Assembly (NCBI GenBank): GCA_021295155.1 | Contig: JAJTJC010000035.1 | Location: 1,178,001-1,242,000, forward strand | DNA: 64,000 nucleotides | From: Flavobacteriaceae bacterium D16 | GTDB taxonomy: Bacteria > Bacteroidota > Bacteroidia > Flavobacteriales > Flavobacteriaceae | Reading direction: 5' to 3' | In this document: in pieces, positions 27,521 through 64,000 of the stretch | How positions within the stretch are numbered: the first letter of the stretch is position 1 | Layout: each line of letters begins with the position of its first letter | Notes under the pieces: generated by a model | The model's database searches: none | The model's input: the letters and a program-made list of their open reading frames with translations, nothing else | Told to the model about the DNA's origin: nothing | Position numbers and translations under genes: made by a program

Positions 27521-27911
27521 CAGTCCACGGCTGCAACTTGTCCCAACCAGGACGTAGGGATAAAAAATCCAATGCCGCCTGTGCAACATTATTGTTTTGT
27601 CCCCTTCTTAACATTGGATTACTCACTGCGTTCGTGATCCAAAGTCAGTCCGCGGCTGCAACTTGTCCCAACCAGGACGTAGGGATAAAAAATCCAATGC
27701 CGCCTGTGCAACATTATTGTTTTGTCCCCTTCTTAACATTGGATTACTCACTGCGTTCGTGATCCAAAGTCAGTCCGCGGCTGCAACTTGTCCCAACCAG
27801 GACGTAGGGATAAAAAATCCAATGCCGCCTGTGCAACATTATTGTTTTGTCCCCTTCTTAACATTGGATTACTCACTGCGTTCGTGATCCAAAGTCAGTC
27901 CGCGGCTGCAA
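27521..27911. repeat. 125-bp tandem repeat, three units plus a 16-bp partial
   Basis: Units at 27521-27645, 27646-27770 and 27771-27895, with a 16-bp fragment to 27911. The units are identical except one base in the first (cagtccAcgg versus cagtccGcgg). Each contains the inverted repeat AATCCAATG / CATTGGATT (53 bases between arms start to start) and a GGATTACTCAC...GTGATCC imperfect hairpin. Each unit also holds an apparent 74-codon reading frame, which is a by-product of the repeat and not called as a gene. It lies downstream of tRNA-Val on the minus strand. Confidence 0.93.
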
Positions 27912-61556: not shown

Positions 61557-64000
61557 TCATTTTTTGATGATCCTGAAAACAGACCTTTCCCTGCCATTTA
61601 GTTCCAGGACAAAATAGAGTATTCCGGGTTTTAGGGCAGAAATATCAACAGGAACCTCATAGTAGGTGTTTTCCGGGTATTTCTCGCTTAACATAAGTTT
61701 ACCTACTTCATCATAAATTTGAATCGAGAAGGCTGTGGGTTCGGAACCAATATCCAGGGTAACAAAATTAGTTGCCGGGTTGGGGTAAAATATGGAAGCA
61801 TTCAATTGATCAGTGGAGGCTTCCAGGTCGGAAATTTGCAACTCGGTAACCAGGTTGTTGGAACAGGGATCCGCATTGGAACCATTGGCAGATTTGAACG
61901 CACTGTTACAGCCCGGACTCTTTATTTGCCACTGCAGGTTTCCACCATCCGTGTATACCTCGAATGTATGAATACCAGGTTCAAAGAAGGAAGGTGCTGC
62001 CCCTTCGAAATAGGCATTTCCCTTAAAAAAGTTTGCAGAGGGCGAATCTCCGGTGAATTGGACATAGATAGGTACATCCAGGCGGTTCTCATAGGTAAAC
62101 GTCAATTTAGTGGTAATTGCCGGATTCGGATAATCCGAAACGGGTTGTTTACAAAGGTCGACTGCCTTGATCCGGTCATTGCAGCTTACTGACGGATTGT
62201 TATAGGTCACTTCAAAACAGAATGGCCTCGTATAGATCCTGAAATTATCGTTAGCAATAACTCCGGGAACGATACATTGCGTACCCGGTTCGAGACCAGT
62301 AAGCACATTTACCGCTTTAAGGTTAATAGGCACGTTAACCTGGCTATTATCTGCATCCAGATTCGTTAACAGGATAAGCGCATTATCCAGAGCCGTTTCC
62401 GGGGTCTGCGAACCATAAGGTTGATCCGAATTAACAAAGCTGAAGCCGTTTACAAAACTAAAACCATTGACAAAACTGAAACCATTGACAAAGCTAAAGC
62501 CGTTGACAAAGCTAAACCCATTAACAAAGCTGAAGCCGTTTACAAAATTAAAACCATTGACCATGCTGAAGCCGTTTACAAAGCTGAAGCCGTTTGGATT
62601 GGCCAGGGGTTCGTATTGAAATGGGAATGCAATATCCGTATTAGATGTCTCGTCCTCCTGTACCTGATTGATTAAGCTTACATCAAGGGGAATTAACCTC
62701 TCTGTTCCATCTCCATTTACGAAAGAAAATCCATTGGCTGTGGCGGTCTCTGCGTTTTCTTCCGTCGATTCGGAGGCAAAGAAGGCCCGGTTGACCATGG
62801 AAAATCCATTGAGTGTGGGCTCCCCATTTACAAAACTAAAGCCGTTGACAAAACTGAAACCGTTGACAAAGCTGAAGCCATTGACAAAACTAATACCATT
62901 GAGCTGGGTAGCATCCAGAGCATTTGTCAATGCTGTTTCATCGATATCCGGTGGAACTTCTCCTTCCGGCTCGCCATAGGTATATTTAAACGCAATGGGA
63001 GGTAAATGCGTTCCGTATTCCCAGCTGGTAATTTCCGTACCGTCTGTATCTTCCAGATATGGCTCTAAGACAACGGGCATGGCCTCAATGACCAACTGCC
63101 CGGGCTGAAATATGCTCGTGTCAAGCACGGGATCCCCATTGGAATCGAATACCGGATTCCCATCGGTATCGGTCTGTTGTATATTGTAAAGTTCAAAGAA
63201 TGCCTGATTAACTATAACAGGAGCAGCGGCATCAAACACAACGGGGCTCGATGTTCCCGCGGGAGTGGAAGATGTTGCCTCTGATGTGAAACTTATCTGA
63301 AACTTAGTAGTGTCCAGGAACAGATCGATTTCGGGTGATAGCAAAATACTGCCAAGTGATCCATCCGCATTCTTTTCATATACCTTAAAGCCAGTAAATT
63401 CCGGATTAAGCTGACCGAACAGGCGGGTGGCATCATCGGGTATTATCACAATATCCTTCCTGGGTTGATTCAGGATGGGTATGGAAACAGAGGTACCCCC
63501 ATCCGTTCCGTTGGTAATGGCATTAGGCGGCGTTAATACATAAAACACCGGATTTCCAATATAGGGGCCAAGATAAACCACAATAGTAGTATCGTCCAGT
63601 ACCCAAAAGGTGTCTTCATCGCCAGGGCCTAAGGTAGAAGCATCTACTGGGTTACCCAGGCTGCTGGGGTCTTCCAGATCTGAATTTGCCGTAAGAGGAT
63701 CGCCCCTGTAATAGACTACGGATTCATCGGTAAAGTAGGCCCCAATAAGATAGACATACGAAGCTTCACCACCGTTCCCTGTGTAAACTGTTGAGCCATC
63801 CGCAGTATCACTAAATTTAGAAAAGGTCGGTATGGGATTGGCAAAGGATCCCAGGGCACCATCCACGGAGATAAACCCATTGCCATTTTTTGTGTCGTAT
63901 CCGGGATTACCGGACATGGGAATAGTATTGTTGATCAATAGTTGGTCAGGGTTGTAATTTGAGATGTCTGACACGGTATAATTTCCCTGATCGTCTTTGA
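61557..64000 (-). CDS. Large T9SS type A sorting-domain protein with NGFSFV repeats (partial)
   Basis: At least 814 codons, open at the right window edge, so the N-terminus is outside. C-terminal T9SS type A sorting domain (last about 80 residues: YPNPATNFVTLDIG, PVDISALKPGILYFVLE...RSVFRIIKK), which targets it to the cell surface through PorV. Upstream are MBG-like beta-sandwich segments (DATRLFGQLNPEFT; YGTHLPPIAFKYTYGEPEG) and two arrays of the hexapeptide NGFSFV at 62433-62594 and 62793-62900. Likely a surface adhesin or matrix protein (inference). No Cys cluster, no catalytic motif seen. The start is outside the window; a GTG at 63974 is not its start. Confidence 0.9.
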   Translation of the reverse strand, partial: KDDQGNYTVSDISNYNPDQLLINNTIPMSGNPGYDTKNGNGFISVDGALGSFANPIPTFSKFSDTADGSTVYTGNGGEASYVYLIGAYFTDESVVYYRGDPLTANSDLEDPSSLGNPVDASTLGPGDEDTFWVLDDTTIVVYLGPYIGNPVFYVLTPPNAITNGTDGGTSVSIPILNQPRKDIVIIPDDATRLFGQLNPEFTGFKVYEKNADGSLGSILLSPEIDLFLDTTKFQISFTSEATSSTPAGTSSPVVFDAAAPVIVNQAFFELYNIQQTDTDGNPVFDSNGDPVLDTSIFQPGQLVIEAMPVVLEPYLEDTDGTEITSWEYGTHLPPIAFKYTYGEPEGEVPPDIDETALTNALDATQLNGISFVNGFSFVNGFSFVNGFSFVNGEPTLNGFSMVNRAFFASESTEENAETATANGFSFVNGDGTERLIPLDVSLINQVQEDETSNTDIAFPFQYEPLANPNGFSFVNGFSMVNGFNFVNGFSFVNGFSFVNGFSFVNGFSFVNGFSFVNGFSFVNSDQPYGSQTPETALDNALILLTNLDADNSQVNVPINLKAVNVLTGLEPGTQCIVPGVIANDNFRIYTRPFCFEVTYNNPSVSCNDRIKAVDLCKQPVSDYPNPAITTKLTFTYENRLDVPIYVQFTGDSPSANFFKGNAYFEGAAPSFFEPGIHTFEVYTDGGNLQWQIKSPGCNSAFKSANGSNADPCSNNLVTELQISDLEASTDQLNASIFYPNPATNFVTLDIGSEPTAFSIQIYDEVGKLMLSEKYPENTYYEVPVDISALKPGILYFVLELNGRERSVFRIIKK
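62433..62594 (-). repeat. Hexapeptide repeat array, nine NGFSFV units
   Basis: Nine 18-bp units inside the T9SS protein; in translation order NGFSFV, NGFSMV, NGFNFV, then NGFSFV six times. The third codon positions vary between units, so the protein sequence is under selection. Confidence 0.95.
62793..62900 (-). repeat. Hexapeptide repeat array, six units, one degenerate
   Basis: Units NGISFV, NGFSFV (three), NGEPTL, NGFSMV in translation order. A single NGFSFV also occurs between the arrays, at about 62713-62733. Confidence 0.93.

Follow-up and report, generated by a model that had tools for sequence, protein, structure and literature searches.

The window analysed here, a 64,000-nucleotide stretch of the 3.22 Mb genome of Flavobacteriaceae bacterium D16, ends inside a minus-strand gene for an exported protein of 1884 amino acids. 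The gene occupies 61557-67211 (locus L004 1557-7211), with its reading frame taken from the adjoining DNA; it is truncated at the window edge, and the window covers just the C-terminal 813 amino acids (61557..64000). The encoded protein, hereafter the motif protein, has an S8 domain that is a divergent subtilase, a TIG-like stretch, a domain of MBG type that holds arrays of a six-residue motif, and a T9SS type A C-terminal sorting domain. The last of these, at 61560..61787 (-), scored above the cut-offs of both PF18962 (5.3e-8) and TIGR04183 (5.5e-7), in agreement with a sequence-only reading of this DNA in which the repeats were said to be attached to a T9SS surface-sorting domain. Elsewhere in the window, at 27521-27911, is a 125-bp tandem repeat (3.1 copies, 99% identity) that is unrelated to the motif arrays.

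The arrays comprise 15 canonical hexads, in frame on the minus strand and grouped as 4+1+1+9, plus one degenerate unit, NGEPTL. Eleven of the canonical units are NGFSFV and two are NGFSMV, with NGISFV and NGFNFV occurring once each; the estimate of about fifteen tandem NGFSFV units made from the sequence alone was thus accurate. Array 1 contains four hexads (NGISFV followed by three NGFSFV; 62829..62900). Directly after it come the degenerate unit (62811..62828), which has the form xEPTx in most homologues of the hexad clade, and a single NGFSMV (62793..62810). Another single hexad, NGFSFV (62718..62735), is bordered on both sides by spacers that are conserved in the homologue alignment, and array 2 contains the remaining nine hexads (62433..62594). 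Tandem Repeats Finder reported arrays with an 18-bp period at 62434-62594 (8.9 copies, 76% matches) and at 62824-62902. Where two window hexads have the same amino acid, 56% of the codon pairs differ, compared with 61% expected from the codon use of the gene.

The arrays separate two segments at 62952..63086 and 62196..62330 (both (-), limits approximate) that appear to be the first and second halves of one MBG-type domain. The joined flanks fall below the Pfam cut-off, and a profile-profile comparison with controls was used instead. Aligned in full to the MBG domains further downstream in the respective proteins, the joined flanks reached an hhalign probability of 86%. A proven MBG domain lying upstream reached 81%; among the negative controls, the value was 14% with the halves swapped and 0.3% for the TIG-like stretch, and none of 30 column shuffles exceeded 3%. 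Because the flanks match MBG while these negative controls stay low, the arrays are most readily interpreted as an insert, about 200 residues long, within a predicted MBG-type beta-sandwich. Several MBG_2 domains were identified in homologues with Pfam. The motif proteins resemble T9SS-exported MBG subtilases in domain order and in having S8, MBG_2 and type A sorting domains, but differ from them in carrying this inserted motif array.

The subtilase domain is recognizable but unusual. Peptidase_S8 (PF00082) matched the motif protein above its cut-off (1.6e-5), and the GTSxAxP serine motif, of the GTS[AS]AAP type, is invariant in ten homologues. Profile matches to solved structures span just the Ser end of the domain. 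At the position of the subtilisin HGT motif, which carries the catalytic His, all ten aligned homologues have DEGRAM as judged by eye (e.g. L004 3852-5252). This suggests that Glu has replaced His, and the domain may be catalytically altered or inactive.

Homologous repeats in relatives and in other T9SS substrates had been proposed as worth searching for, and they exist: across Flavobacteriaceae and Saprospiraceae the layout is kept, but the unit is not. The close hexad relatives are from Eudoraea, Robiginitalea, Maribacter, Algibacter, Xanthomarina, Formosa and Saprospiraceae, and one further hexad homologue comes from a family of the same class that is less closely related. These proteins retain approximately 4+1+1+10 units together with the spacers. 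Their hexad cores vary by lineage (LSLV, ISLV, VSLV, IALV, IPLV, LSVI, FNLV and FSL[RST], compared with FSFV in the window), while Asn is near-invariant in every hexad unit and an NG turn is frequent. In Saprospiraceae, L042 (7119-8633) encodes about 500 residues of near-continuous hexads of the form [SN]-L-[VI]-[ND]-[GA].

A search with the protease domain recovered a sister clade in which the units have 7, 8 or 9 residues and are partly dispersed. Heptads include KFQAVVN, RFKAVVN, GFKALVN, RARALVN and SFKGLAN, and one octad array consists of ten copies of NGQALGII. The nine-residue units of the L144 homologue (NDFRQSAIM type) are less uniform than the heptads. Many heptads occur singly between conserved spacers, with spacings of, for example, 7, 28, 35, 7, 22 and 7. 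In two genomes, G814 and G815, there are two copies of the motif protein (L125 and L129, L128 and L130), and the two in G815 have different motifs, KFKAIVS and RFNAVVN.

Copies are nearly identical within a protein and divergent between proteins. For 22 heptad proteins with 126 copies, copies in the same protein were 98.1% identical and copies in different proteins 57.8%, with 16 different modal motifs. The copies are uniform even where spacers of 20-35 residues part them, although some motif-positive proteins (G827, G293 and G375) have mixed copies. Asn or Ser precedes the unit in 125 of the 126 heptad copies, and Asn or Ser also stands at the unit end. In the heptads, the synonymous codons of identical residues differ in 52% of codon pairs, compared with 60% expected from codon use. 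Codon continuity, followed slot by slot between congeneric species, yielded little signal, since synonymous sites approach saturation.

Slippage or gene conversion could in principle homogenize the copies and leave them uniform without any function. Array length does vary slightly, and in one Saprospiraceae protein (L035 7977-8909, NGIALV) adjacent units are near-identical in their codons (0.19 compared with 0.63 expected), which indicates recent slippage there. In most of the remaining proteins that were examined, identical units differ from one another in their codons almost at random, a result that largely refutes this explanation, and dispersed 21-bp copies between diverging spacers would be poor substrates for gene conversion. 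We regard it as very improbable as a general account. Within the window, the third-position variation that had been taken as a sign of selection on the protein holds up quantitatively, and the possibility raised alongside it, copies identical at the DNA level through recent slippage, is contradicted by the near-random codons of the hexads. The combination of identical residues and near-random codons argues that selection on the peptide, not recent duplication, is what keeps the copies equal, L035 excepted.

A gene for a TPR-cyclase is adjacent to the motif gene in 41 of 41 loci with enough flanking sequence, a count that excludes three loci ending at a contig edge and L040. In the heptad/octad clade it usually lies downstream of the motif gene on the same strand, with a gap of no more than about 20 bp. 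In the encoded protein, a signal peptide is followed by a TPR region (Pfam TPR_12, 3.8e-38), one TM segment and a class III cyclase domain (PADLOC PycC, 8e-16). In a structure-profile search the TPR region resembled peptide-binding TPR proteins, including GPSM2 and, as a weak match, Rap receptors. An HD gene is also usual at motif loci. Orthologues of the HD protein with >50% identity were found in 3 of 99 related genomes, and only in those that have the hexad protein.

Some loci additionally include a gene for a PycTM-family membrane protein, which is missing from many others. In the genome that contains the window this gene (L004 7455-7994) lies outside the window, beside the motif gene and in the opposite orientation, as in several relatives; its product matched PF18967 (1.3e-11) and PADLOC PycTM (1.7e-22). 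Pycsar defence consists of a PycC cyclase with a PycTM effector. The motif loci share with it the class III cyclase and, at some loci, the PycTM-family protein, but here a signal peptide, a TPR region and a TM segment belong to the cyclase, motif and HD proteins are linked, and PycTM is often missing. One locus (L086 3917-9966) encodes TPR-cyclase, PycTM and HD proteins together with two small secreted proteins and has no motif protein. This suggests that the receptor module may also serve partners other than the motif protein.

The motif and the TPR region diverge together in one pair of genomes. In G808 and G809, which belong to one genus, the operon DNA is 92-100% identical outside two islands, between which lies a nearly identical stretch of about 1.25 kb. 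The first is the motif region (80% DNA identity), with seven KFQALVS in one genome and seven KFQAVVN in the other, and the second is the half of the cyclase that contains the TPR (70-82% DNA identity). Protein identity along the motif protein falls from 0.99 in S8 to 0.79 in the motif region and is 0.95 in the C-terminus; in the TPR-cyclase, the TPR region stands at 0.72, compared with 0.99 for TM plus linker and 1.00 for the cyclase domain. Two same-motif pairs, G027/G818 and G811/G814a, have no comparable drop in the TPR region. In the surrounding 98 kb of G808 and G809, median identity is 98.4% and 45 of 392 comparison windows fall below 88%, chiefly in a 7-kb SusC/SusD-type block; islands as such are therefore not unique to the motif operon.

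Across 17 loci of the heptad clade, motif distance was correlated with TPR distance when the distances of cyclase and S8 were controlled for (partial r=0.38, permutation p=0.005). The same partial correlation was not significant in the 14 loci of the hexad clade to which the window belongs (r=0.31, p=0.09), and in both cases the permutation leaves species relatedness in. Against the link, G156 and G809 share one motif, yet their TPR regions are 32% different.

We propose that the repeats are a multi-copy, lineage-specific recognition peptide sensed by the linked periplasmic TPR cyclase, and we put the probability of this reading at about one half. A T9SS-exported subtilase-like protein would carry many copies of one peptide, and the periplasmic TPR domain of the membrane cyclase would bind that peptide, whether it is still part of the intact protein or has been released. 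Binding would set the cyclic-nucleotide output of the cyclase, the linked HD phosphodiesterase-like protein would end the signal, and the PycTM-like membrane protein, where present, could receive it. We infer the binding, the signalling, any release of the peptide and the role of each neighbour. A single receptor that reads identical copies would account for why the copies are uniform, change between lineages and can be dispersed, and also for the linked genes and the paired islands.

The chief rival is like-with-like beta stacking. Each copy would contribute one strand and its Asn(-Gly) turn, equal residues would stack within one molecule or, between cells, as an adhesive or amyloid-like zipper, and this stacking would oblige all copies to change together. 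The alternating hydrophobic residues, the near-invariant Asn of each unit, the frequent NG turn and the tandem arrays of 9-12 units are all consistent with such a homotypic structure, and strand lengthening could permit unit length to vary between families. AlphaFold models of two arrays, however, were of low confidence: for the window array with 17 homologues the mean pLDDT was 42 (22-28 in the array), and for a 505-aa homologous array alone it was 33, values compatible with strand, arch or amyloid structure as well as with disorder. Single copies that lie apart are no less uniform than those in tandem, charged and polar positions at which stacking is disfavoured are uniform too (RFRTVL, RARALV, KFQ/KFR), and a co-diverging TPR domain would be left unexplained. 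We therefore consider this structural alternative rather unlikely. A left-handed beta-helix was initially favoured from the V-N-G-x-S-x pattern and was dropped once units of 7 and 8 residues were found. A curli-like, amyloid or solenoid stack, as suggested in the sequence-only reading, does share short regular repeats and hydrophobic alternation with the arrays, but neither the curlin repeat nor Hexapep (left-handed beta-helix) had a Pfam match in the motif protein at E<=1, and a profile search of the array region against solved structures found no relative (best match E 0.038). Given homologous units of 7, 8 and 9 residues and scattered copies, a fixed-period solenoid is ill-suited.

A stronger form of the recognition-peptide reading would make the motif protein the precursor of a released pheromone. 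The exported protein would be cut beside Asn/Ser, and the freed peptides of 6-8 residues would pass through the outer membrane to reach the TPR sensor and bind it. The identical copies, the Asn or Ser on either side of the heptads and the unit lengths of 6-9 residues are compatible with this, and tandemly duplicated pheromone propeptides are known in Firmicutes (PMC11343458). Tandem units abut, though, without a separate cleavage spacer, the carrier is large and domain-rich, unlike known propeptides, and both processing and subtilase activity are only putative. We judge release to be less probable than the structural alternative.

Comparable logic is found in peptide signalling systems of Firmicutes. 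RRNPPA receptors bind short pheromones via TPR domains, and some of their propeptides hold several pheromones (PMC9765709, PMC11343458). Like these Firmicutes systems (Rap-Phr, PlcR-PapR, AimR-AimP, Rgg-SHP), the motif loci combine short, linear, lineage-specific peptides with TPR receptors and adjacent ligand and receptor genes. The RRNPPA receptor is cytoplasmic, whereas the TPR here is predicted to be periplasmic and is connected with a class III cyclase through a TM segment; the copies sit in a large exported subtilase-like protein, the phylum differs, and the homology seen is limited to generic TPR similarity. In Bacillus, at the ComQXPA pherotype locus, the variation of ComP falls in its sensor half while its output half is conserved (PMC4008528), and a variable ligand paired with a variable N-terminal sensor half is likewise seen here. 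ComQXPA uses a histidine kinase and a single modified peptide, as opposed to a cyclase and an unmodified, multi-copy motif. The motif/TPR-cyclase system belongs to neither the RRNPPA nor the ComQXPA family.

Scattered identical peptide copies that are under selection while their codons drift are a rare clean case in bacteria, and peptide identity amid drifting codons is a strong marker of a recognized ligand. The table of motifs provides ready cognate and non-cognate peptide pairs. Peptide signalling through TPR receptors is already known from Firmicutes; in the literature searched we found no counterpart in Bacteroidota, and nothing that matched on Bacteroidetes peptide signalling with cyclases or on MBG repeats in T9SS proteins. 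Tentatively, then, these loci may represent a form of peptide communication or self-recognition in Bacteroidota, in which a T9SS-exported protease would release or display up to 16 copies of a species-specific peptide of 6-9 residues, a receptor cyclase would sense it with its periplasmic TPR domain, and ligand and sensor would be exchanged jointly as specificity alleles.
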